Of a DNA stretch of 45,907 bases, positions 82 through 23,048 are shown piece after piece; position 1 is the stretch's first letter, and each line of letters begins with the position of its first letter. The notes beneath the pieces are model-generated. The model did not search any database. It was not told the origin of the DNA and worked only from the letters and a program-made list of their open reading frames with translations. Where the stretch lies: the NCBI GenBank assembly GCA_002840985.1, contig PHDM01000060.1, forward strand, positions 1-45,907, read 5' to 3'. A program made the position numbers and the translations under genes. The stretch is from Bacteroidetes bacterium HGW-Bacteroidetes-17 (GTDB taxonomy: Bacteria > Bacteroidota > Bacteroidia > Bacteroidales > GCA-2711565).

Positions 82-3000
82 ATGCTCAATCAAGAGATTT
101 ATAAACCCCAAAATCATATAAGAATAGTAACGGCCGCATCATTGTACGACGGACATGATGTTGCCATTAATGTAATGCGAAGAATTATCCAGTCGAGTGG
201 AGCTGAGGTTATTCATCTGGGACATAATCGTTCGGTTCTTGAAATTGTGGAATGTGCGATTCAGGAAGATGTTCAGGCCATTGCCATTACATCATACCAG
301 GGAGGGCATCTTGAGTTTTTTAAATACATGTTTGATTTACTGAAAGAACGATCCTCAAACCACATAAAAATATTCGGTGGTGGCGGAGGGGTGATCCTTC
401 CGGAGGAAATTGAGGAATTGCATCACTATGGAATTACACGTATTTATTCGCCTGACGATGGAAGAACAATGGGTTTACAGGGGATGATCAACGATTTGTT
501 GAAACAATCCGATTTTGCAGCAGGCAAAGGGGTAAAAGCCAACTTAAAAAGTCTGGCTGAAAAAGACCCTAAAACAATTGCACAACTTATTTCGGCAGCT
601 GAAAATAATCCCGAAGAGATAGAAGATACCCTTAACAAAATACGAGAAATTGCCGCTAAAGATAAAGCCCCTGTTTTAGGAATTACCGGAACAGGTGGTG
701 CAGGAAAATCTTCGTTAGTGGATGAGTTCGTGCGAAGATATTTAACCGATTTGCCTGATAAAACCATAGCCATTATTTCGGTTGATCCCTCAAAAAGGAA
801 AACAGGTGGAGCATTGCTAGGTGACCGTATAAGGATGAATTCAATTTTTAATCCAAGGGTTTATATGCGTTCACTGGCCACACGTCAGTCAAATTTGGCC
901 ATGTCGAAATATGTAAAAGATGCTGAAAGTATCATCCAAGCTGCCAAGTTTGATATGGTCATTTTAGAAACTTCCGGCATTGGACAATCTGATACAGAAA
1001 TTATTGATCACAGCGATTTATCGCTATATGTGATGACTCCTGAATATGGAGCCGCAACCCAGCTCGAAAAAATCGACATGCTTGATTTCGCAGATATCAT
1101 CGCCTTAAATAAATTTGATAAAAGAGGCGCACTGGATGCAATACGGGATGTGAAGAAACAATATGCTCGCAATCACCAACTTTGGGAAGAAGATGTTGAA
1201 AGTATGCCAGTTTATGGAACCATTGCATCACAATTTAATGATCCGGGGGTTAATCAATTGTACCAAGCCATCATTGCGAAAATTAAAGAAAAAACAGGCG
1301 TTGATTATCATTCAAAAATGCATCCCGAAAATGAGATGTCGGAAAAGGTTTTTATCATTCCGCCAAATAGAACCCGTTATTTATCTGAGATTTCAGAAAC
1401 AGTTAGAAAATATAATTCCTGGGCGAATGATCAATCGCTAATTGCGCAAAGGATGTATGTAATTCGAAAAGCCATCGAAGAGCTTGATCCTGGTAAAAAT
1501 ACTTTGGGTATTTCCGAATTAGAAGATGCTTATAAAGCCATTGAGATCAATCTGGATGGTCATAATAAACTGCTAATTGAAGGATGGGCGGAGAAGAAAA
1601 AAGCATTTTATGAGCCTGTTTATACTTATAAAGTCAGAAATAAGATCATTAAAGTTGAGACTTCGACCGAATCCTTATCCCATCTTAAAATTCCTAAAAT
1701 TTCATTGCCAAAATACGAAGGATGGGGCGATGTATTGAAATGGATCCTAAAAGAAAATATTCCGGGTGAATTTCCATTTGCTTCCGGAGTGTTCCCGTTT
1801 AAACGTCAGGGTGAAGATCCAACGCGCATGTTTGCAGGTGAAGGTGGCCCTGAACGTACCAATCGTCGGTTTCATTACGTATCCTTGGGAATGCCGGCAA
1901 AAAGGCTTTCTACCGCTTTCGACTCTGTTACACTTTATGGGGAAGATCCCGATAGAAGACCTGATATTTATGGAAAAATAGGGAATTCAGGAGTTTCGAT
2001 TTGCTGCCTGGATGATGCAAAAAAATTGTATTCAGGCTTTCATTTAACGGATGAAATGACTTCGGTTTCGATGACAATAAATGGCCCGGCACCTACCATG
2101 GTTGGGTACTTCATGAATGCTGCTATCGATCAGGAATGCGAAATCTATATCAAAGAGCAAGGCATTGAAGCTGAAATTGAAGCAAAAATTGCTAAATTGT
2201 ACAAAGAACGTGGTACGAAACGTCCCAAATATCAGGGCAAGTTGCCTAAAGGAAATGACGGATTGGGATTGATGCTTCTGGGAGTAACCGGAGATCAGGT
2301 TTTAGCGAAAGAGATCTATGAAAAAATTAAAGCGGATACCCTTTGCAGGGTAAGAGGAACAATCCAGGCCGATATTTTAAAAGAAGATCAGGCACAAAAT
2401 ACCTGTATTTATTCTACTGATTTTTCACTCCGATTGATGGGTGATGTACAGGAATACTTCATCAATCATAAAGTCCAGAATTTTTACTCAGTCTCGATTT
2501 CAGGTTATCATATCGCGGAAGCAGGGGCAAATCCAATATCTCAATTGGCTTTCACTCTAGCCAATGGTTTTACCTATGTTGAATATTATGCTTCACGCGG
2601 GATGAAAATCGATCATTTTGCTCCAAACTTATCTTTCTTCTTCTCCAATGGACTTGATCCTGAATATTCAGTTTTGGGAAGGGTAGCAAGGTTAATCTGG
2701 GCCAAGGCCATGAAGGTAAAATATGGTGCAAACGATCGTTCCCAGAAATTGAAATACCATATTCAAACCTCGGGCAGATCCTTGCATGCACAGGAAATAG
2801 ATTTTAATGATATTCGAACAACGCTTCAAGCGCTATATGCCATTTACGATAATTGTAATTCTTTGCACACCAATGCTTATGATGAAGCCATCACCACACC
2901 AACAGAGGAATCGGTAAGACGCGCGATGGCTATTCAGTTAATCATTAATCATGAATTGGGCCTGGCAACAAACCAAAATCCATTGCAAGGTTCGTTTATT

Positions 3001-3453
3001 ATTGAGGAATTGACCGATTTGGTTGAAGAGGCTGTGATGGCTGAATTTGACCGGATCAACGAAAGAGGCGGAGTATTGGGAGCGATGGAAACCATGTACC
3101 AGCGTAGCAAAATTCAGGAAGAGTCATTGTATTACGAAACCCTGAAGCATAATGGCAAATTGCCGATCATGGGTGTAAATACTTTCTTATCTTCAAAAGG
3201 TTCACCGACAATCACTCCCGGAGAAGTGATTCGTGCGACTCCTGAAGAAAAGGAATATCAGATTAAAATGCTGGAACAGCTTCATAAAACCTATGAGCAG
3301 GAATCAAAAGCAAATCTTCAGGAATTAAGATTGGCTGCAGTTCGAAACAAAAATGTTTTCGAACAATTAATGGAAGCAAGTAAATACTGTTCGATTGGAC
3401 AAATTACAGGAGCTTTATTTGAAGTAGGTGGACAATATCGAAGAAATATGTAA
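82..3453 (+). CDS. icmF: Fused isobutyryl-CoA mutase (IcmF), B12-dependent
   Basis: Adenosylcobalamin-dependent carbon-skeleton mutase that interconverts isobutyryl-CoA and n-butyryl-CoA; known family members also act slowly on isovaleryl-/pivalyl-CoA. The 1123 residues show the fused architecture: an N-terminal B12-binding domain (residues 12-140, with DGHD at 23-26 giving the axial His25, SYQGGH at 71-76 and a glycine-rich run at 99-103), then a MeaB/ArgK-type GTPase chaperone domain (P-loop GTGGAGKS at 203-210, NKFD at 343-346), then the mutase TIM barrel (about 550-1120, with the segment [20 protein letters not shown] near 571-590). Ordinary methylmalonyl-CoA mutase keeps the GTPase separate and the B12 domain C-terminal, so the order is diagnostic. 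The length is normal for the family. A butyrate-kinase-like gene follows 39 bases downstream, probably in the same transcript. The leucine-catabolism locus further along fits a branched-chain acyl-CoA role. Confidence 0.93.
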
Positions 3454-3492: not shown

Positions 3493-4569
3493 ATGTACCC
3501 AAAAAAAATCCTGGTTATCTATCCTGAAGAAAAATCAACATATATTGCTGTTTATCATGGATCAGAAATGACATTCCTTAAAAATATTAAGCACACAGAT
3601 GTTGAACTGGATGCTTTTAAAGAGATAAAAGATCAGCTCACATTTCGGAAAAAAGCCATTTTAGAGGTGTTGCTTGAGAACGATATTGACATCAAAAAAG
3701 TTGATTTGTTAATGTCAAGATCGGGAATGATGAAGCCCGTTAAATCAGGGATTTATGAAATCAACGAATTGATGATTAAAGATTTAATTGAAGGCAGCAA
3801 AAGTGACCATCATATCAATTTGGGTGGATTGGTTTCGAAAGAGATTGCTGATGATCTGGGTATCAAAGCATACATGGCTGATCCTGTTGTTGTGGATGAA
3901 TTTGATGAAGTAGCTCGAGTGAGCGGACATCCGCTGATTGAACGGAAATCGAGATTTCATGCACTGAGTCATAAGCATTTTGCCCGTAAATATGCCAAAT
4001 CAATTAGCAAACAATACGAAGATTTAAATCTTATTGTGGTTTATGTTGGAACCAAAGGAATTTCGATAGGTGCACATAAAAAAGGCAAGGTGATTGATGT
4101 AAATCAATCGTATGATGGAGATGGCCCATTTGGAATTACAAGGGCAGGGTCTTTGCCAACCGGTGATTTGATCCGTTTATGTTTCAGCGGGAAATACAAT
4201 GAAAGCGAAATGCTTGACTTGGTTCAACGAGGAGGAGGATATGCTGCCTATCTTGGAACTTCTAATTTATCTGAAATAGATCAACGACTCATGTCGGGTG
4301 ACGATACCGCCATATTTATTTCTTATGCATGTGCCTATCAGGTTGCCAAAGAAATTGGTGGTATGTATGCTGTATTAGATGCAAAAGTTGATGCGATCAT
4401 TTTAAGCGGGAATATTTTTAATAGTGAACGCTTCCTTGAAAATGTAACCCGACGGGTTGGAAAAATTGCCCCTATAGCTTTGTATCCCAGCAAAAATGAT
4501 TTTGAAGCCATTGCCATGAATGGATTGCGATTACTGAAAGAAGAAATCGTAGCTCAAGAGTATAAATAA
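3493..4569 (+). CDS. Divergent butyrate-kinase-family protein, possibly catalytically dead
   Basis: A 358-residue member of the acetate/propionate/butyrate kinase fold (ASKHA), which normally makes ATP from butyryl phosphate. Full-length alignment by eye to butyrate kinase is good: family-like blocks are GIYEINELMI (86-95), PLIERKSRFHALS (147-159), GAHKKGKVIDVN (193-204) and DGDGPFGITRAGSLPTGDL (208-226). The nucleotide/phosphate motifs are not conserved. The N-terminal NPGSTSTK motif reads YPEEKSTY (10-17). The GRGG motif reads SRSG (75-78). The H-x-GGG loop reads YVGTKG (184-189), with one extra residue and His replaced by Tyr184. The TGG motif near the C-terminus reads SGN (305-307). It lies 39 bases after icmF, so it could be a regulatory or substrate-binding partner for butyryl groups. 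Alternatively it is an active but unusual kinase. Family membership is secure; activity is doubtful. Confidence 0.8.
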   Translation: MYPKKILVIYPEEKSTYIAVYHGSEMTFLKNIKHTDVELDAFKEIKDQLTFRKKAILEVLLENDIDIKKVDLLMSRSGMMKPVKSGIYEINELMIKDLIEGSKSDHHINLGGLVSKEIADDLGIKAYMADPVVVDEFDEVARVSGHPLIERKSRFHALSHKHFARKYAKSISKQYEDLNLIVVYVGTKGISIGAHKKGKVIDVNQSYDGDGPFGITRAGSLPTGDLIRLCFSGKYNESEMLDLVQRGGGYAAYLGTSNLSEIDQRLMSGDDTAIFISYACAYQVAKEIGGMYAVLDAKVDAIILSGNIFNSERFLENVTRRVGKIAPIALYPSKNDFEAIAMNGLRLLKEEIVAQEYK

Positions 4570-4572
4570 TAT

Positions 4573-4616
4573 CTATCCCCCCAAACCACAACTTAAGTTG
4601 TGGTTTGGGGGGATAG
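4573..4616. repeat. Perfect 44-bp palindrome (REP-like hairpin)
   Basis: Two perfect 20-base arms (4573-4592 and 4597-4616) flank TTAA. The inner part, AACCACAACTTAAGTTGTGG, resembles the palindromes at 5058-5087 and 13846-13877. It sits 3 bases after the butyrate-kinase-like stop codon and 31 bases before the transposase start, the usual place for a REP hairpin beside a REP-associated transposase. It would also stop transcription from icmF. Confidence 0.8.
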
Positions 4617-4647: not shown

Positions 4648-5076
4648 ATGTCACATTCACTTGTTAAAATATGGGTGCATGCAATTCTCGGTGTTAAATA
4701 TCGTGAGAATCTCATCATTCCCAAATCGGAGAAATTAATTTACAAGATTTTATCAAGAGAGATTTCCAAAACTGGGTGTAAGTTATTTGCCATTGGTGGA
4801 ACTGAAAATCATGTTCATATTTTGATAATGATCAAATCATCAGTCAGTATCAGCAATATAATGAAACAAGTTAAAGGTGCAAGTAGCCGAATGATTTCAA
4901 GATTAAAGTTATGCCCGGATGAATTTAATTGGCAAATCGGCTATGGCGCTTTTTCTGTTTCCGAGAAAAATGTGAAGGGTGTTATCAGGTAAATCAAAAA
5001 TCAAAAAACACATCATGAGCATGTGAGCCTTCAAGATGAGATGGTATCCTTCCGCTCTACCAAAGCCACAAATTAA
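4648..5076 (+). pseudogene. REP-associated tyrosine transposase (RAYT, Y1/IS200-like), inactivated
   Basis: Single-strand DNA transposase of the HUH/Y1 family. The open frame runs from ATG 4648 to TAA 4990-4992 (114 residues) and contains the HUH motif NHVHIL and the family signature GYGAFSVS. The same frame continues past the TAA as IKNQKTHHEHVSLQDEMVSF and ends at 5074-5076. Family members read YxxxQ (catalytic Tyr, then Gln four residues on), so the TAA occupies exactly the catalytic tyrosine codon (TAT/TAC to TAA, one base). The extreme C-terminus also looks eroded, running into the downstream palindrome. It is flanked by palindromes on both sides, as is typical for RAYT/REP units. Identity is secure from the motifs, and loss of function follows from the missing nucleophile. 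Confidence 0.85.
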
Positions 5077-13888: not shown

Positions 13889-15779
13889 TTACAACCGATC
13901 TTTAAAATATTCCAAGCTTTCTGGATTTGCAAGCGCGTCCTTATTTTTAACCTCTTGCCCATGGGCAATTTTTTTTGGTTTCCAAAATCATAGCCGGAAC
14001 ATGGCGTGGGCTGCAACTTTTCCGGATTTGATCTTTTATTTTCCGTTTTAATTCTTCAGTTAAAACTTGCCCAATAGCTAATTTTACAAAAAGGACAACT
14101 TCTTCGTCGTTTTCAAGCTGATGACCAATCACTACCGAATCGGCAATTTCATCCATATTCTCAACCACACGGTAAATTTCGGCAGTTCCTATTCGCACAC
14201 CACCCGGATTTAAAGTTGCATCCGAGCGACCATGCATTTGAATACCACCGTTTTCGGTAATGAGAATATAATCGCCATGGTGCCAAATATTGGGATAAGT
14301 TGCAAAATAAGCATCATGATATTTTTCACCTTTCGGGTCATTCCAAAAGTAAACCGGCATTGAGGGGAAAGCTGTTTTGCAAACCAGTTCCCCTTTTTCT
14401 CCTATTAAGCTTACACCCGCTTCGTTGATGCAATCCACATCCATTCCCAGTCCTTTACACTGAATATCTCCGCAATAAACCGGTAGTAAAGGATTTCCTA
14501 AAACAAAACAAGAAACAATATCCGTACCTCCGGCAATAGAAGAAAGCTGGACATCTTTTTTCCAATTACGATAAACATATTCGAAGCTTTCTTCGGAAAG
14601 GGGAGAGCCCGTTGAAAGTATGGCCTTGAGTCTTGGGAAATCAGAAATATTTTTTGGAATAACCCCTTCTGATTCGAGCATGGCTATGTATTTTGCACTG
14701 GTGCCAAAAATAGTAATGTCAAGTTCATCCGCCATTTTAAGCAATGCATCAGCTTGGGGATAAAACGGATTGCCATCATAACAAACGATGGTTGCTCCAA
14801 CCGCCAGCGAACTTACAAACCAGTTCCACATCATCCAACCACAGGTTGTGTAATAAAAATGCACATCATTTTCTGTCAAATCGCAGTGCAATTTCAATTC
14901 TTTCAAATGCTGGATGAGCGTTCCTCCAGCAGAATGTACAATGCTTTTTGGCAACCCTGTTGTGCCTGAAGAGTACATGATATAGAGCGGATGATCGAAA
15001 CTTAGTTGTTCAAAAACGAGTTTATCTTCGGTAGGTTTGGCAAGTTCTTCAAATGTGATGGCATTTGAGAATTTAGCAGTATCAACGGTATTTGTATAAT
15101 TCACCAAAACTACTTTTTGAACGGAGGGCAATTGATCTAAAATCTGCAAAAGTTTTTCTTGGGAATCAAATTGTTTTCCTTTAAAAAAGTAACCATCTGC
15201 AGCAAAAATTACTTTAGGTTCAATTTGGCTGAAACGGTCCAAAACACCTTTAATCCCAAAGTCGGGAGAAGACGATGACCAGATGGCCCCAATCGATGAA
15301 GTGGCTAACATGCCAATGATACTTTCGGGCATATTGGGCATAAATCCGGCGATACGATCTCCTTTCTTTACTCCAAGTTTTTTTAAACCTGCCGCCGTTT
15401 TCCTGACTTCTTCGTGTAATTCTTTGTAGGATAGTTGTCTTTTTATTTCTGATTCGCCCCGAAAAATAATGGCCGTTTTATCATCTCTCCTCTGCAAAAG
15501 ATTTTCAGCATAATTAAGTTTGGCTCCTAAAAACCATTTCGCTCCCGGCATTTTCCCGGCATCATCAACAACCGAAGTGTATTTTTCTGAATGAATGATG
15601 TTTGAATAATTCCAGAATTCTCCCCAAAAATCAGCCGGGTTTTCAACACTCCACTGATGCAAATACGCATAACTATTTTCAGCAAGATGATATTTTTCGT
15701 TAATCAGATTCAGAAATTCCTGCATTTGGGATGCAGAAGCTATTTCAGGGTTGGGTTGCCAAAGTTTTGTATTATTCAT
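13889..15779 (-). pseudogene. Acetoacetyl-CoA synthetase, 3' end damaged by deletion and frameshift
   Basis: AMP-forming ligase that would activate acetoacetate, the product of HMG-CoA lyase, to acetoacetyl-CoA. The N-terminal domain is intact (LWQPNPE start, P-loop YSSGTTGLPKSIVH, GGTDIVSCF, HHGDYILIT, HGRSDATLNPGGVRIG). I prefer the start at 15779 (MNNTKLWQP) over the in-frame codon at 15815. After HVPAMILETKK the open frame runs NCPWARG and stops at 13947-13949. One base over, past an A8 tract (complement of 13969-13976), the true C-terminus is still readable as AHGQEVKNKDALANPESL and ends at 13889-13891. About 16-18 residues that normally include the YTxNGKKVE (A10) motif with the catalytic lysine are missing. 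Repairing the frame alone would therefore not restore the adenylation step. It is either a real pseudogene or an assembly error. Confidence 0.82.
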
Positions 15780-15820
15780 TTTTAGTCTAGAATTAAGCAC
15801 ATAAGGGTTGCTCAAAAATG

Positions 15821-15892
15821 AATTTGAAGATTTGAAAGTGTGCTAATTTGAAAATGACTCGTTCTCCTCAAATATTATCAAATTTTCAAATT
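15821..15892. repeat. AT-rich intergenic hairpin repeat, copy 1
   Basis: Arm AATTTGAAGATTTGA (15821-15835) pairs with TCAAATTTTCAAATT (15878-15892) at 14 of 15 positions. The 20-base left arm is nearly identical to that of the copy at 17076-17157. It lies between the acyl-CoA dehydrogenase and acetoacetyl-CoA synthetase genes. Confidence 0.6.
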
Positions 15893-15906
15893 GAATAATT
15901 TTCAAA

Positions 15907-17052
15907 TTAACAACCTATATAGCGTGAAATCACCAATCGCTGAATTTCTGAAGTTCCTTCGCCAATTTGCAATAATCGCTGATCACGGAAAAAACGTTCA
16001 ATGGCGTAATCTTTCATCAGGCCATAGCCACCATGTAATTGAAGTGCTTCGTCGGCAACTTCTTTTGCAATTTCCGAGCAATACAATTTCGACATGGCTG
16101 CCTCTTTAGCAAAGGGTTTATTTTCATCTTTCAACCAACATGCTTTGTAAAGCAGGTTTCGCGCAAGTTCAATTTTTAGGGCCATATCAGCCAACTTAAA
16201 GGCATTCACTTGAAATTTAGAGATTGGTTTGCCAAATTGTTTGCGTTCGTTGGCATAATTTAAACCCAATTCAAAAGCACCTTGTGCAAGGCCAAGCCCC
16301 ATAGCGGCAATCGAAAGCCGGCCATTGTCGAGAGTACTGAGCATAATTTTTGAGCCTTGTCCAACTTCACCTAAAAGATTTTCTTCCGGAACTTTACAAT
16401 CCTCAAAATACAGCTCGGCTGTGTCGGAAGCCCGCCACATCATTTTGCCATGCATGGTACTGCGTTTGAAACCCGGAGTATCTTTTTCAACAATGATGCA
16501 GGTAAATTCTGTTTTACCGTTTTTTTCGTCGCTTACAGCCTGAACGGTTGAACCAACTGAAATTTCAGAGGACCCGTTGGTGATAAAAATTTTTGAACCA
16601 TCAATTATCCATTGGCCATTCTCTAGTCGTGCTTTGGTTTTAGTTCCTCTCGAGTCGGATCCGGCAGTAGCTTCGGTCAAACCGAAACCCCAGAGCGCTT
16701 CACCTGTGCAAAGAGGGGGAAGGTATTTTAGTTTTTGTTCTTCAGTGCCGTAATAATATAAAGGCCCGATCCCAAGGGAATTGTGGGCAGCAAGTGTGGC
16801 AGCTTGCGAGCTGTCAACCCTGGCTAATTCTTCAACGGCAATGATGTAAGATAAAGTGTCAAGTCCCTGTCCACCGTATTTCTCGGGCAGGTACATTCCA
16901 AATAGGCCTAATTCTCCCATCTTTCGTGTCAGGTCGAGGGAGAATTCTGCTTTTTCGTCTAATTCCTGGGCAATTGGTTTAATTTCTAATTCAGCGAAGT
17001 CGCGGACCGCTTCGCGGATCATTTTTTGTTCCTCACTTAAATCGAAATTCAT
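15907..17052 (-). CDS. Short/branched-chain acyl-CoA dehydrogenase
   Basis: FAD enzyme that would oxidise isovaleryl-CoA or another short acyl-CoA in this locus. It is a standard length at 381 residues. Motifs are GLTEATAGSD (124-133), ANERKQFGKPISKFQ (257-271), LQLHGGYGLMKDY (338-350) and IGEGTSEIQR (363-372). The catalytic base appears to be Glu365, the position used by short-chain/butyryl enzymes; the helix-G position used by true isovaleryl-CoA dehydrogenases is Gly244 (LDNGRL). Specificity therefore cannot be assigned to isovaleryl-CoA from residues, only from context. Hairpin-repeat spacers lie on both sides (about 115-130 bases), so it may have its own transcript within the minus-strand locus. 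Confidence 0.9.
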   Translation of the reverse strand: MNFDLSEEQKMIREAVRDFAELEIKPIAQELDEKAEFSLDLTRKMGELGLFGMYLPEKYGGQGLDTLSYIIAVEELARVDSSQAATLAAHNSLGIGPLYYYGTEEQKLKYLPPLCTGEALWGFGLTEATAGSDSRGTKTKARLENGQWIIDGSKIFITNGSSEISVGSTVQAVSDEKNGKTEFTCIIVEKDTPGFKRSTMHGKMMWRASDTAELYFEDCKVPEENLLGEVGQGSKIMLSTLDNGRLSIAAMGLGLAQGAFELGLNYANERKQFGKPISKFQVNAFKLADMALKIELARNLLYKACWLKDENKPFAKEAAMSKLYCSEIAKEVADEALQLHGGYGLMKDYAIERFFRDQRLLQIGEGTSEIQRLVISRYIGC

Positions 17053-17075
17053 AATATTAAATTTGAAAATTAGTT

Positions 17076-17157
17076 AATTTGAAGATTTGAAAATGATCTT
17101 ATCTCCAGTTTGATGAATTAGATTCATCACATTGGCACATTTTCAAATCAACGAATT
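17076..17157. repeat. AT-rich intergenic hairpin repeat, copy 2
   Basis: Arm AATTTGAAGATTTGAAAATG (17076-17095) pairs with CATTTTCAAATCAACGAATT (17138-17157) at 17 of 20 positions. It is the same repeat type as 15821-15892. It separates the biotin-protein gene from the acyl-CoA dehydrogenase gene and probably works as an RNA hairpin or terminator. Confidence 0.6.
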
Positions 17158-17168
17158 AGCAAATTGTG

Positions 17169-19349
17169 TTATTCAATTTCTACCAGCACCGCACCTGCAT
17201 CAACCATGTCGTCAAGTAAAACAAGCACTTTTGCAATTTTGCCATCCCTTTTTATGGAGATATTATTCTCCATTTTCATGGCATCTATCACTATAACGAC
17301 GTCATCTTTCTTAACCACATCACCCGGTTTAACGAGGATTTTAAATACCCGACCCGGAATTGGAGAAACAATAACATTTTCTTCATTCACGGCAGCATCT
17401 TCAACTGCAGCCGTGTGTTCAGTGTCTAACAGATCATTTCGTCTGATTAAGAAATCACCACCATTGATGCTAACCTTGATCATTTCATCATCGGCTTTTG
17501 TGAAACTGGCAAAGTAAGTATTGTTGCCAATTTTAAAATCAACCTCATTTTGATTCATGTAAATCAATTGGCAATCATGTTCAACATCATCGAAAATAAA
17601 TTGGTAATTATCATCTTGCGATTTATTTATCTCAATTTCATGATCTGCACCCTGGAAATTAATTTGCAGTGACATGAGATTCCTCCAATATCCTATCGCG
17701 TTCCAAACATCGTGCTTTGGATCTAAATAAGATTTATCACTGGCCTCTTTATTTAATGAATGGAGCAAGTACGCTAATATTGCCACTTGGTTTTCAACTG
17801 CACCTTTGGTGTAATTATTTCGGTTTGGAGCTTGATCTTCTTTCACAGCGACTGAAGTTTTAGGGGTTGTTGAAGTTGTTGGAGCAGGCATACGTTTTTT
17901 TGCTATTTCTTCTTCAAAACGTTTTTTGGCCAGCCCGGATTTATAATCGCGATATTGTGTTTCATGCATTGCAAATTCAAAAAGTTCTTCATCATCAGGA
18001 CCGGTATCCCAACCATTATCCAGCATTTCTTTTCGGAATTTATCCAATTCATCCGGACACGCATCTTGTGGAACCCCTGTATAGAATTCCCTGTTTTGTT
18101 TTTTTGCTAATGCAATAAGTTCGGGTGCCAAAGGACCGGGTAATTTACCGGCTTTGCCCAAAATCATATTCCAGGTATTTTCATCAATAATAGAATAACG
18201 CTCTTCTCCTTTTGATAATTGAACCAGATTCAAGAGGGCCACATTTTTTACATATTGACTGAATGGGGTTACCAATGGCGGATATCCAAGTTTTGGCCAA
18301 ACATAAGCTACCTCATCAAAAAGTTTAATCAGTAATTCGTCCTGACTGATCTGATCTTTTCCATTCGCTTTTAACGAGTAATTGATACCATCGTGAACGC
18401 CTTTCAAATCGGCCATTAAACTGCCCATCATACCACCGGGTAATCCTGAACCTACCATTAAGGATGAAAGGAGCATGTTTTTTGGATCAATGAAATATCC
18501 AAGGAAATCGTCCATGAAACTTTGGGTCAATGCGCGGGCTTCCATGTAAGCTTTCATGTTAATTTCCGGAACGTCAAATCCGGCATCTTTTAACATTGCC
18601 TGTATGGTAATAACGTCAGGGTGGATCATCCCCCAACTTAATGGTTCCATGGCCACATCAATATAATCTGCTCCTGCTCGTGCAACTTCAAGCATTGAAG
18701 CTACTGAAAAACCCGGGCCGGAATGACCATGATATTGAATTGCAATGTGTGGATGTTTCTTTTTGATTCTGCTTACTAATTCACCAAGGCTTGCCGGACG
18801 GCCAATACCGGCCATATCTTTCAAACATATTTCATCGGCACCGTACTCAATTACCCGGTCGGCTAATTCGGCATAATAATCTACAGTATGTATGGCAGAA
18901 TGGGTAATACTTAACGCGGCTTGTGAAATCATTCCGGCTTCTTTTGCATATTTAACGGAAAGTTCCAGATTTCTGTGATCATTTAATCCGCAGAACGAAC
19001 GGGAAATATCAGTTCCCTGAGCTTTCTTCACTTTATACATCAATCGTCTCACATCGGCAGGTACCGGGAACATTCGGATTCCATTCAATGCACGTTCCAG
19101 CATGTGGGTTTGTATTCCTACATCATTAAAAGGTTGGGTCCATTCACGAACTGCGGTATTTGGGTTCTCTCCGTATAATAAGTTAACCTGCTCAAAAGCA
19201 CCACCATTGGTTTCAACTCTTGCAAAACATCCCATATCGATTATAACAGGTGCAATTTTCTTTAATTGATCAATCCTTGGAACATATTTTCCGGAAGATT
19301 GCCACATATCTCGGTAAACCAGGCTGAATTTAATTTGTCTCTTCTTCAT
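17169..19349 (-). CDS. Chimeric biotin protein: 5S-type carboxyltransferase + MCC-alpha-like BT domain + biotin carrier
   Basis: Residue numbers count from an upstream in-frame codon at 19400; I prefer ATG 19349 (residue 18, MKKRQIK), 19 bases after the hydratase stop. Residues 24-310 are an HMGL-like TIM barrel with the oxaloacetate-carboxyltransferase metal site: Arg30-Asp31 (YRD), Gln34, Lys194 (ICLKDMAG), His224 and His226 (YHGHSGPG). Spacing is nearly that of the transcarboxylase 5S subunit. Residues about 315-500 match the PYC/OADA C-terminal region. After a Pro/Thr linker (504-520), residues 540-660 (VWNAIGYWRN, then short beta strands, then FLIRRNDLL) resemble the BT domain of methylcrotonyl-CoA carboxylase alpha. 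Residues 675-743 are a biotinyl domain with Lys709 in AMKME. No biotin carboxylase domain is present. The gene sits with the MCC beta subunit and methylglutaconyl-CoA hydratase. I infer a transcarboxylase from a 2-oxo acid to 3-methylcrotonyl-CoA. Alternatives are a decarboxylase, or a second partner that uses a biotin carboxylase encoded elsewhere. Confidence 0.85.
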   Translation of the reverse strand: MKKRQIKFSLVYRDMWQSSGKYVPRIDQLKKIAPVIIDMGCFARVETNGGAFEQVNLLYGENPNTAVREWTQPFNDVGIQTHMLERALNGIRMFPVPADVRRLMYKVKKAQGTDISRSFCGLNDHRNLELSVKYAKEAGMISQAALSITHSAIHTVDYYAELADRVIEYGADEICLKDMAGIGRPASLGELVSRIKKKHPHIAIQYHGHSGPGFSVASMLEVARAGADYIDVAMEPLSWGMIHPDVITIQAMLKDAGFDVPEINMKAYMEARALTQSFMDDFLGYFIDPKNMLLSSLMVGSGLPGGMMGSLMADLKGVHDGINYSLKANGKDQISQDELLIKLFDEVAYVWPKLGYPPLVTPFSQYVKNVALLNLVQLSKGEERYSIIDENTWNMILGKAGKLPGPLAPELIALAKKQNREFYTGVPQDACPDELDKFRKEMLDNGWDTGPDDEELFEFAMHETQYRDYKSGLAKKRFEEEIAKKRMPAPTTSTTPKTSVAVKEDQAPNRNNYTKGAVENQVAILAYLLHSLNKEASDKSYLDPKHDVWNAIGYWRNLMSLQINFQGADHEIEINKSQDDNYQFIFDDVEHDCQLIYMNQNEVDFKIGNNTYFASFTKADDEMIKVSINGGDFLIRRNDLLDTEHTAAVEDAAVNEENVIVSPIPGRVFKILVKPGDVVKKDDVVIVIDAMKMENNISIKRDGKIAKVLVLLDDMVDAGAVLVEIE

Positions 19350-19368
19350 TCTTAATTCGTTATAAAAT

Positions 19369-20157
19369 TTATTTGACCCAATTAGGCTTTCTCTTTTCAA
19401 GAAAAGAAGCCATTCCCTCTTGTCCTTCGTCAGAAGCTCTTAATTCGGCTATTACTTTAGAGCTGTAATCAATAGCACTTTCAAAACCGTATTTATTACT
19501 GATGTTATATATTAACTCTTTACAAGCAGTAATTGCGTTAGGCCCACTACTTAATAAGAATTGAACCATTTTATTGGTGTGTTCTTCAATCTCATTTTCC
19601 GGATGAGCCGAATTCGCCAATTGATATTGTGCTGCTTCAATTCCTGTAAAACGCCTTCCACTTAACATTAAATCCCTGGCCCTGAATTCGCCAATCCTTT
19701 TAAGCACGTATAGTGAAATTGTTGCTGGGGCAATGCCTAATTTAACTTCGGAGAATGCGAATTTTGCATCCTCTGTACAAAATACATAATCGCAAGCTGC
19801 CAGCAAACCATTGGCACCACCAATGGCAGCACCTTGCACAACAGCAATGGTGGGTTTTTTGCAGGTGTATATTGCATTAAAGCATTTGGCAAGTCTTAAG
19901 CTGTCTTCGTAGTTTTCCTTGAACCCAAATTCAGCGATTCCTTTCATGTAATTGAGGTCGGCACCGGCACAAAATGATTTTCCCCTGCCTTTTAAGAGTA
20001 TTACACGAACTTCCGGATCATCATTTAACAATTCGAAACAATCAATAATTTCCAGGATCATTTCGGCATTCATTGCATTATGTTTATCAGGCCTGTTTAG
20101 CCAAATTGTGCCAACTTGATCCTGAAGCTCGAATTCGATATTATTAAAAGATTGCAT
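19369..20157 (-). CDS. liuC: Methylglutaconyl-CoA hydratase (LiuC-like crotonase)
   Basis: Crotonase-fold enzyme hydrating 3-methylglutaconyl-CoA to HMG-CoA in leucine breakdown. I start it at ATG 20157 (MQSFNNIEF, 262 residues), 10 bases after the carboxylase beta stop; an earlier in-frame codon at 20202 would overlap that gene. Motifs are LNRPDKHNAM, SFCAGADLNYMK (oxyanion-hole region), AAIGGANGLLAACD and FAFSEVKLGIAPATIS. The general crotonase Glu in the GG-x-EL position is Gly here, while the second catalytic Glu (SEV) is kept. The family of LiuC enzymes shows this same pattern with APATIS following, so I regard it as native and not as damage. Confidence 0.88.
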   Translation of the reverse strand: MQSFNNIEFELQDQVGTIWLNRPDKHNAMNAEMILEIIDCFELLNDDPEVRVILLKGRGKSFCAGADLNYMKGIAEFGFKENYEDSLRLAKCFNAIYTCKKPTIAVVQGAAIGGANGLLAACDYVFCTEDAKFAFSEVKLGIAPATISLYVLKRIGEFRARDLMLSGRRFTGIEAAQYQLANSAHPENEIEEHTNKMVQFLLSSGPNAITACKELIYNISNKYGFESAIDYSSKVIAELRASDEGQEGMASFLEKRKPNWVK

Positions 20158-20167
20158 ATGTTTAGAT

Positions 20168-21775
20168 TTACATTCTGAAAACACCAAATTTCTGATCGTC
20201 AAATGGCTTATTTAACGACATGGAGATTCCCATAGCCAAAACTTTTCGGGTATCGACCGGATCGATGATCCCATCATCCCATAAGCGTGCTGTGCTATAA
20301 TATGCTGAACCTTCATGATCGTATTTTTCGATAATGCTATTTCGAAGTTCGTCGATTTCTTCTTTTGGCATTGTTTTGCCTTTTGCTTCGTATTGATCCT
20401 TCTTAACAGTGATCAACACATTTGCAGCTTGTCGCCCACCCATTACCGAAATTTTCGCATTTGGCCACATAAATAATAAGTTGGGACTGTATGCACGACC
20501 TGCCATTCCATAATTGCCTGCACCGAAAGAGCCTCCAAATATGACCGTGAATTTAGGAACATTTGCATTTGCAACGGCATGTACCAGTTTTGCACCATCT
20601 TTGGCAATTCCTTTTCTTTCATAATCTTTACCAACGATAAATCCTGTAATATTCTGTAGAAAAACCAATGGAATTTTACGCGCACAACACAATTCAATAA
20701 AATGCGCTCCTTTAAGTGCTGATTCGTTAAACAGGATTCCTTTATTGGCAATAATCCCAACAGGATAACCCATGATTTTTGCGAAACCGGTAACCAAAGA
20801 GGTGCCGTATTTTGCTTTGAATTCGTGAAACTTACTTCCATCTACCATCCGCATGATGATTTCCAATGGATCAACCATCTTTCGGAAATCAATTGGCGCA
20901 ATACCATAAAGTTCTTTTGGATCGTACAGAGGTTCTTCAATCGGACTTAAATCAAGCTTTTGTTTATTTTTTTTATCCAGGTTTTGGAAAATGTTTCGGC
21001 AGATTTGAATGGCATGAACATCATCGTCGGCCATGTGATCGGCAACACCCGAATGGGTTGTATGAACTTCTGCTCCGCCTAATTCTTCAGGAGTTACCAC
21101 TTCGCCGGTAGCAGCTTTGACCAATGGAGGTCCACCGAGGAAAATCGTACCTTGATTTTTAACAATAATTGTTTCATCACTCATCGCAGGAACGTAAGCT
21201 CCTCCGGCTGTACATGAACCCATTACAATGGCAATTTGAGGAATCCCATTTGCGGACATTTTTGCCTGGTTATAAAAAAAGCGACCAAAATGTTCCTTGT
21301 CCGGAAATACGTTTGCTTGTTCAGGTAAAAATACCCCACCAGAATCTACCATATAAACGCAGGGAAGCAGATTGTCCATTGCAATTTCCTGAGCCCTTAA
21401 ATGTTTCTTGATACTTTCTTTAACATAAGTACCTCCTTTAACAGTAGCATCATTCGCGATGATAACGGTTTCGCGACCATGAATTACACCTATACCGGTA
21501 ATGATACCGGCTGATGGGTGGCCATCGTCATACATTTTATAAGCCGCTAGCGTAGAAAGTTCAAGAAATGGGGTATTGGGATCTATTAACTTGTCAATAC
21601 GTTCTCTTGCTAATAATTTTCCCCGCTCTTTATGTTTCTTAACCGTAGAGTCGCCACCACCTTTCTTAACCTGTTTATGGATCGCTTTGTATTCGCTAAG
21701 GAGTTTTAAAAAATCTTCTTTATTTTTCTTAAACTCATCAGAGCCTGTGTCAATTTTAGTTTCTAGCTTAAACAC
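20168..21775 (-). CDS. liuB: Methylcrotonyl-CoA carboxylase beta (carboxyltransferase) subunit
   Basis: Transfers the carboxyl group from carboxybiotin to 3-methylcrotonyl-CoA, giving 3-methylglutaconyl-CoA. The 535 residues match MCC beta nearly end to end: [74 protein letters not shown] and [17 protein letters not shown]. These MCC-specific blocks (especially SGGxxLPxQxxVFPD) separate it from propionyl-CoA carboxylase. The start codon is GTG (21773-21775). It is the first gene of the minus-strand liu operon; the expected alpha subunit with biotin carboxylase is absent and the chimeric biotin protein stands in its place two genes on. Confidence 0.93.
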
Positions 21776-21847
21776 GTTTCAGTTTTTTCGTTTGACTATA
21801 TTTTCACTTCCAGGTATTGTATTTATCAAATATTTTGTATTTTTACT

Positions 21848-21873
21848 TGAGTTGTTAGCAGATTAACAACTCA
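21848..21873. promoter_or_regulatory. Candidate operator between divergent liu transcripts
   Basis: A perfect inverted repeat, TGAGTTGTTA-N6-TAACAACTCA, lies in the 262-base region between the divergently transcribed MCC beta and HMG-CoA-lyase-family genes, 73 bases from the first start and 165 from the second. Size and symmetry suit a dimeric regulator. No regulator gene is next to it, and a stem-loop role in the RNA leader is also possible. Confidence 0.5.
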
Positions 21874-22037
21874 TCATGTGCAAGGTGCAAGTATAGTGAA
21901 AATTTTATTCAATTGAAAATTATCAGAACTCATACCTATGAATAAATAGAGAAACATAATGTATGCACAAAGGAAAAAATTTACGAAAACATTCGCAAAT
22001 ACAACGGATCAAATTATTAAACTTTAAAAATATTGAT

Positions 22038-23048
22038 ATGAATTACCCCAAAAAAGTAACAATCGGAGATATAACAGTTAGAGATGGATTTCAACATGAA
22101 GAAATGTTTATTCCAACTGAAGCAAAACTCTGGGTTCTGGAACAATTAATACTGGCCGGATTTAAGCATGTTGAAGCTACAAATCTGGGAAACCCGCGTG
22201 GAATGCCTCAATTTAAAGATGCAGACAACTTATTGAAAATGCTCAATAAAAGTAAAAAAGTAGCCCACCTTATTGATAAGGTCTCTGTAACTGCCATTAC
22301 AATCAGGGAAAAAGCAATCGAGCGTGCTATTCAAGCAAAAAAAGAGGGTTGGGGCCCCGATCGTGTTTTGGTCATGGTTTCAACAAGTGAATCACATCAA
22401 CGTCAAAATTCCGGACTTAGCATTGAAGAATATTTTAAAATGTGCGAAGAATGGATTCCGAAAGCTCATGATGCAGGGATTAAGGTAAACGGAACCGTTA
22501 GTACCATTTGGGGTTGCCCTATTGAAGGCCCGACCGAAATGTCGAAAGCTATTGATTTTACCAAACGATGGTTGGATATTGGCGCCAATGATGTTGAGCA
22601 TGCCGACCATGATGGTTCTGCATCTCCCGACAGGGTTTATAAATATTATTCGATGTTGCTGGATGCCATACCGAATCCTGAAAAACATATCGTTCATTTT
22701 CATCAAACCAGGGGTTGGGGATTGGCAAATGTATTGGCTGCGCTTCAGGCCGGGATGACAAATTATGAAGCGACCATGGGTGGAATTGGCGGTCAACCTG
22801 CTAATTTTGTAAGCGGAGTTCCGGTATCAGGTACTGGTGATTATTATTATAAAGATCCTTCAATAGTTGGATTAGTTTCAATGGAAGATATGGTAGTCAT
22901 GATGGATGAGATGGGTATCGATACAGGTTTGGATGTGGATAAAGTGCTTGAAATAGGTAGGATGGTTGAGCGAATTTGTGGAAGGCCATTGCGTTCGGAA
23001 GCTATTAAAAATGGAAGAATTCCCAAATCCTTATCAGGACGAAAATAA
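22038..23048 (+). CDS. HMG-CoA-lyase-family protein lacking the catalytic cysteine
   Basis: 336 residues from ATG 22038 (MNYPKKVTIG); an upstream in-frame start at 21963 adds 25 unconserved basic residues. It is a DRE-TIM/HMGL barrel with Arg15-Asp16 (TVRDGFQHE) and the metal His pair His220/His222 (VHFHQTRGWG). In authentic HMG-CoA lyase the mobile loop reads GGxGGCP; here it reads GGIGGQP, with Gln253 in place of Cys. The C-terminus after the loop is longer than in the second lyase. It may therefore act on a different acyl-CoA or 2-oxo acid, for example as a lyase or synthase handling the same C6 intermediates. It is divergent from the carboxylase operon, with a shared control region and a hairpin terminator right after the stop. 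Confidence 0.78.
   Translation: MNYPKKVTIGDITVRDGFQHEEMFIPTEAKLWVLEQLILAGFKHVEATNLGNPRGMPQFKDADNLLKMLNKSKKVAHLIDKVSVTAITIREKAIERAIQAKKEGWGPDRVLVMVSTSESHQRQNSGLSIEEYFKMCEEWIPKAHDAGIKVNGTVSTIWGCPIEGPTEMSKAIDFTKRWLDIGANDVEHADHDGSASPDRVYKYYSMLLDAIPNPEKHIVHFHQTRGWGLANVLAALQAGMTNYEATMGGIGGQPANFVSGVPVSGTGDYYYKDPSIVGLVSMEDMVVMMDEMGIDTGLDVDKVLEIGRMVERICGRPLRSEAIKNGRIPKSLSGRK

Follow-up and report, generated by a model that had tools for sequence, protein, structure and literature searches.

A divergent butyrate kinase paralogue behind isobutyryl-CoA mutase in Bacteroidales: a candidate acetokinase-family pseudokinase

Introduction

The window, which is the whole 45,907-nucleotide stretch of DNA analyzed here, encodes a divergent paralogue of butyrate kinase (Buk) immediately behind the gene for a fused isobutyryl-CoA mutase. 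This protein, termed pBuk, raises the question of whether it is still a kinase or has kept the fold of one and lost the catalysis. Automatic annotation labels pBuk a butyrate kinase, above the curated equivalog cut-off, and metabolic models would therefore assume an energy-yielding reaction where there is probably none. The initial annotation of the locus had proposed a pseudokinase, perhaps a butyryl-phosphate sensor or a regulator of IcmF or of a genuine kinase.

Pseudokinases and other pseudoenzymes (reviewed in PMC10211241) are like pBuk in that fold and selection are kept and catalytic motifs are lost. No pseudoenzyme of the acetokinase family was found in the literature searched, nor was a butyrate kinase pseudoenzyme or a link between IcmF and butyrate kinase. 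If the proposal is true, pBuk would be an acetokinase-family pseudokinase and may be a partner devoted to a B12 mutase. Its graded relatives would allow tests of the ways in which a kinase can change or give up its phosphoryl donor.

The pBuk gene and its predicted fold

The pBuk gene occupies positions 3493..4569 on the forward strand and encodes 358 amino acids, as judged from the ORF call, the family profile, the alignment to Thermotoga maritima Buk2 (TmBuk2), and an AlphaFold2 model. A re-check of the ORF agreed with the initial annotation on coordinates, strand, the 358 codons, and the uninterrupted frame. Against the NCBIfam equivalog TIGR02707, pBuk scores 395.9 bits, compared with a curated cut-off of 289.1. 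The alignment to TmBuk2 spans the full length of pBuk at 42% identity.

The fold, which had been claimed to be retained, is predicted to be that of Buk. The AlphaFold2 model has a pLDDT of 91.0 and a pTM of 0.89, obtained from an input alignment of 43 window and locus sequences in which ordinary relatives favour the result. The closest crystal structure to this model is butyrate kinase 2 (1x9j; Z 47.3, 1.6 Å over 355 residues); the prediction is of a single chain, and the predicted fold says nothing on ligand binding. pBuk and Buk (TIGR02707; TmBuk2, PDB 1saz/1x9j) have fold, length, and acyl-side residues in common.

The same genome carries an ordinary buk elsewhere, split across the ends of two contigs, and the window gene is therefore an extra paralogue. 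Beside the ordinary buk lies a phosphate acetyl/butyryltransferase gene (the Pfam PTA_PTB match comes from its counterpart in G001, a near relative), and the genome also has an acetate kinase gene. Buk is linked to ptb, whereas pBuk is linked to icmF.

Changes on the nucleotide side

Buk differs from pBuk in PHOSPHATE1, PHOSPHATE2, LOOP3, the ADENOSINE motif, and the C-terminal acidic loop, all of which are altered in pBuk. The following features were placed by alignment, and all lie on the forward strand. The PHOSPHATE1 loop is YPEEKSTY (residues 10-17; 3520..3543) in place of NPGSTSTK. SRSG (residues 75-78; 3715..3726) replaces [GS]RGG and retains the Arg. The PHOSPHATE2 loop, YVGTKGIS (residues 184-191; 4042..4065), is one residue longer than H[LM]GGGIS. 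LOOP3 is GITRAG (residues 214-219; 4132..4149) in place of [ST]PERSG, with Arg217 retained. The ADENOSINE motif SGNIF (residues 305-309; 4405..4419) replaces TGG[IL]A, and the C-terminal loop SKNDF (residues 333-337; 4489..4503) replaces GEDE[ML].

The initial annotation had named four of these changes, and each is real relative to TmBuk2 (NPGSTSTK to YPEEKSTY, SRGG to SRSG, HMG-GGIS to YVGTKGIS, and TGG to SGN). It overlooked two further lost blocks, namely LOOP3 (PERSG to ITRAG) and the C-terminal loop (GSNE/GEDE to SKND), as well as a fixed Ala-to-Phe change within the ADENOSINE motif.

The residues of PHOSPHATE1 are hallmarks in MtACK, where catalysis drops greatly when Asn211, Gly239, or Gly331 is changed; Gly331Gln is among the worst (PMC4390882). 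In StAckA, the metal ligands are Asn10, Lys17, Asp150, and Glu387 (PMC3475010). An acetate kinase profile alignment equates TmBuk2 G304 with MtACK Gly331 and N8 with Asn7. In pBuk, the site of Gly331 is occupied by Asn307 and that of AckA Glu384 by Asp336. The Asn, Gly, Ser, and Lys of PHOSPHATE1 are all gone, and Tyr, two Glu, and Phe stand where Buk has Asn, Gly, Ser, and Ala. At metal-ligand sites of the StAckA type, Asn has become Tyr, Lys has become Tyr, and Glu has become Asp.

A conserved clade within the order

Of five other genomes in the genus, four encode a homologue of pBuk with the same PHOSPHATE2 insertion (97 to 73% identity), and such homologues also occur in further families of the order. 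In the tree, a branch with an SH-aLRT support of 98 separates the 62 distinct pBuk sequences from all others. Grouping driven by the motif columns was ruled out, since a tree rebuilt without them keeps the clade (SH-aLRT 99). The paralogue is conserved as one well-supported clade spanning 18 families. Its members are found in at least 48 of the 393 genomes covered in the order, and an ordinary Buk is present as well in most of these 48. Beyond the order, 395 genomes of the phylum were scanned stringently, at a threshold that would miss distant members, and the window gene was the sole match.

The clade qualifies one claim about PHOSPHATE2. The insertion is present in all members (62/62). The change of His to Tyr holds for the window protein and fails as a general trait, as this site is His in 43, Tyr in 11, and Thr in 8 members; the His is kept even in one pBuk homologue of the same genus.

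Two subgroups can be distinguished, and the contrast between them rests on few events because the early-branching one is a single clade. That early subgroup has 10 members (families f6, f41, and f59 and a named relative). It retains the PHOSPHATE1 Asn/Asp and Lys/Arg and mostly Glu at the Glu384 site, and has GGGG in PHOSPHATE2, Asp or Glu at the Gly331 site, and Phe309. The second subgroup has 52 members, including that of the window, in which the PHOSPHATE1 Asn is replaced by Tyr (51) or His (1).

Seven more degenerate Buks, which do not have the insertion, adjoin the clade in the tree (support 88-91). A single origin of the whole degenerate group is possible, though not firm. Two of the seven, at loci L194 (G036:C33) and L195 (G025:C287), lie directly downstream of icmF, at 28 and 107 bp, respectively, and each has an ordinary Buk after it. 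At L206 (G004:C175), in the same genus as the window, icmF is present and no recognizable pBuk is found in the remaining 681 bp of the contig; a Buk of any kind was not found in that genome.

Purifying selection

The loss of multiple motifs might mark pBuk as a decaying buk pseudogene. Comparison of the window gene with its G001 counterpart gives 60 synonymous and 9 nonsynonymous differences (dN/dS 0.033, a pairwise Nei-Gojobori estimate; at larger distances, synonymous sites are saturated). The neighbouring IcmF has a dN/dS of 0.052 in the same comparison, and the ordinary Buk fragments give a dN of 0.011-0.013 and a dS of 0.30-0.42. Selection on pBuk is therefore strongly purifying and comparable to that on its neighbours. 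An intact frame, homologues in 18 families, and the fixation of new residues also speak against decay. Within the limits of the pairwise estimate, dN/dS and conservation rule out a pseudogene, a reading that is now hardly credible.

Conserved sites and the acyl side

The distribution of the losses was assessed over 115 non-gap positions conserved in 90% or more of ordinary Buks; the nucleotide loops contain 27 of them. The clade lost 19 of the 115, and 12 of these 19 are in the nucleotide loops (hypergeometric p 5e-5). In TmBuk2 numbering, the PHOSPHATE1 losses are Asn8, Gly10, Ser11, and Thr12. The other nucleotide-side losses are Pro212 and Glu213 of LOOP3, Gly304 and Ala306 of the ADENOSINE motif, and 331-334 of the C-terminal loop. 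Several new residues have become conserved in the clade, namely Tyr10 (51/62), Phe309 (54/62), and Asp336 (49/62), which is unlike free decay.

The acyl side was said to be well kept, and residue conservation in both groups bears this out. H104, N107, D133, E134, R149, S151, H154, K159, H192, and R214 (TmBuk2 numbering) are conserved to at least 93-95% in the clade and in ordinary Buk. Acyl and transfer-site residues that are unchanged in pBuk include H106, H156, D135, E136, and R217.

Because the nucleotide side is rebuilt, pBuk has most likely ceased to be a butyrate kinase that depends on ATP. The rival position is that it continues to phosphorylate acyl substrates with ATP, perhaps slowly or with another acid as substrate, through an ATP site built from other residues. 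The TIGR02707 score, the retained His, Arg, and Asp of the transfer site, and the strong purifying selection agree with such an enzyme. It would have to operate with PHOSPHATE1, PHOSPHATE2, LOOP3, and the ADENOSINE motif altered jointly, and with Tyr, two Glu, and Phe filling the sites of Asn, Gly, Ser, and Ala, and is judged distinctly unlikely. Some residual phosphotransfer is possible because the Glu384 site is still acidic (Asp) and because His154 and Arg214 are kept.

The retained acyl-side residues could also serve a hydrolase of acyl phosphate or acyl-CoA, in which the Glu and Tyr gained by the PHOSPHATE1 loop might support attack by water. An acyl phosphatase with the acetokinase fold was not found in the searches made, and this function is quite improbable.

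Pyrophosphate as an alternative donor

A different possibility is that pBuk is an acyl kinase using pyrophosphate (PPi), phosphate, or another small donor, convergent with the acetate kinase of Entamoeba (EhACK). This rival stands because the PPi-dependent Entamoeba enzyme, too, is marked by one extra residue in the PHOSPHATE2 loop and by a blocked ADENOSINE motif (PMC5517563). In EhACK, the PHOSPHATE2 loop has an additional Gly that is limited to EhACK and a few homologues of anaerobes, and the ADENOSINE motif is occluded (PMC5517563). The Gly331 site is Gln in Entamoeba and Asp in bacterial homologues of EhACK (PMC5517563).

The EhACK query sequence matches chain 4h0o, from which it differs by one residue. 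EhACK (PDB 4h0o) and pBuk are alike in the longer PHOSPHATE2 loop (HLGTGG and [HY]VGT[GK]G, respectively) and in the filled ADENOSINE motif. Unlike pBuk, EhACK keeps the PHOSPHATE1 Asn, Gly, and Ser, and it belongs to another subfamily, with 16% identity in the structural alignment.

Evidence from the clade falls on both sides. The longer loop is universal in pBuk (62/62), and the 10 early members combine GGGG, Asp or Glu at the Gly331 site, and Phe309 with intact catalytic residues in PHOSPHATE1. A membrane pyrophosphatase gene is present in 14/14 clade genomes checked, which permits the use of PPi without being specific to it. Against this, EhACK retains NVGSSS in PHOSPHATE1 where the window protein has YPEEKS, and E. 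coli ACK given single EhACK residues gained no use of PPi (PMC5517563). Few members beyond the early subgroup have Asp at the Gly331 site, and the window protein has Asn there. The window protein fits a PPi-dependent enzyme less well than the early subgroup does, because EhACK keeps the PHOSPHATE1 Asn, Gly, and Ser. For pBuk as a whole, an alternative donor is rather unlikely. A split reading, in which the early members (f6, f41, and f59) would be PPi-dependent butyrate or branched-chain acyl kinases and the IcmF-linked members later partners of IcmF that lost PHOSPHATE1, is likewise doubtful.

Linkage to icmF

The gene upstream of pBuk is icmF (82..3453, forward strand), which encodes a fused isobutyryl-CoA mutase/GTPase and ends 39 bp before pBuk on the same strand. 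The identification of this neighbour as an isobutyryl-CoA mutase holds: its product scores 1755.5 bits against NCBIfam NF045497 (cut-off 1500) and also matches 4xc6. Aligned to 4xc6, it retains Phe and Gln at the positions of Phe598 and Gln742, the isobutyryl-CoA mutase signature. IcmF (PDB 4xc6) is the product of a conserved upstream partner gene and is not a homologue of pBuk.

IcmF is found in 138/393 genomes of the order. Among the matches listed, it occurs in 45 of the 48 genomes with a clade member and in 93 of the 345 others (Fisher p 1e-19, a value that is too small because the genomes are related). pBuk lies directly downstream of icmF, on the same strand and within 500 bp, in at least 23 genomes from 11 of the 18 families, and within 7 kb in at least 29 genomes from 14 families; contig breaks conceal some adjacencies. 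Linkage is absent in the remaining 4/18 families. An ordinary Buk directly behind icmF was seen in 0/61 cases among the matches listed in IcmF genomes. By subgroup, icmF is adjoined by 33/52 members of the PHOSPHATE1-lost group and by early members in 0/9 genomes. The statistical link between icmF and pBuk is supported. It shows shared use, not contact.

Proposed role of pBuk

As a claim about sequence, the pseudokinase proposal is well supported by the motif loss, the predicted fold, and purifying selection. The nucleotide motifs are lost, while fold and selection appear to be retained, as expected of a pseudokinase, and normal ATP-dependent kinase function has probably been lost. A sensor or regulator role goes one step beyond this presumed loss of activity. 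The most economical reading is that pBuk keeps the pocket for the acyl group or acyl phosphate, no longer uses ATP in the normal way, and works in the service of IcmF or of C4 acyl flux.

A duplicate of Buk in Bacteroidales may have given rise to pBuk, in which the nucleotide side was rebuilt and the fold and acyl-side pocket persisted. The protein would bind a C4 acyl ligand, such as butyrate, isobutyrate, or the acyl phosphate. It could then regulate IcmF or the ordinary Ptb-Buk pair, or serve either as a scaffold, and might match the interconversion of butyryl-CoA and isobutyryl-CoA to the acyl-phosphate pool. Taken whole, this account of a Buk-derived, C4-acyl-binding partner that does not depend on ATP is given about an even chance. 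The early-branching subgroup, in which PHOSPHATE1 is still intact, is a counterpoint to it.

Other neighbouring genes

A conserved downstream partner of pBuk was ruled out, as the downstream genes vary among lineages. In five loci (L036, L038, L044, L045, and L047), a protein of ~800 amino acids is encoded directly behind pBuk; a Pfam scan of one copy gave no match. At L210 (G168:C62), in family f59, an early-type pBuk lies beside an apparent leucine-degradation operon, as judged by a look at the sequence. IcmF was not found in this family. A similar leucine-degradation-like cluster is present in the window at 13947-23048, where an acetoacetate-CoA ligase reaches its family cut-off and the remaining genes are partial matches.

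A perfect palindrome with 20-bp arms (4573-4616) begins 3 bp past the pBuk stop codon and occurs once in the genome. It is followed by an IS200-like (Y1_Tnp) ORF at 4648-4992, which encodes 114 amino acids, compared with 147 in G001. In the G001 palindrome, both arms have changed together, and the hairpin is therefore kept.
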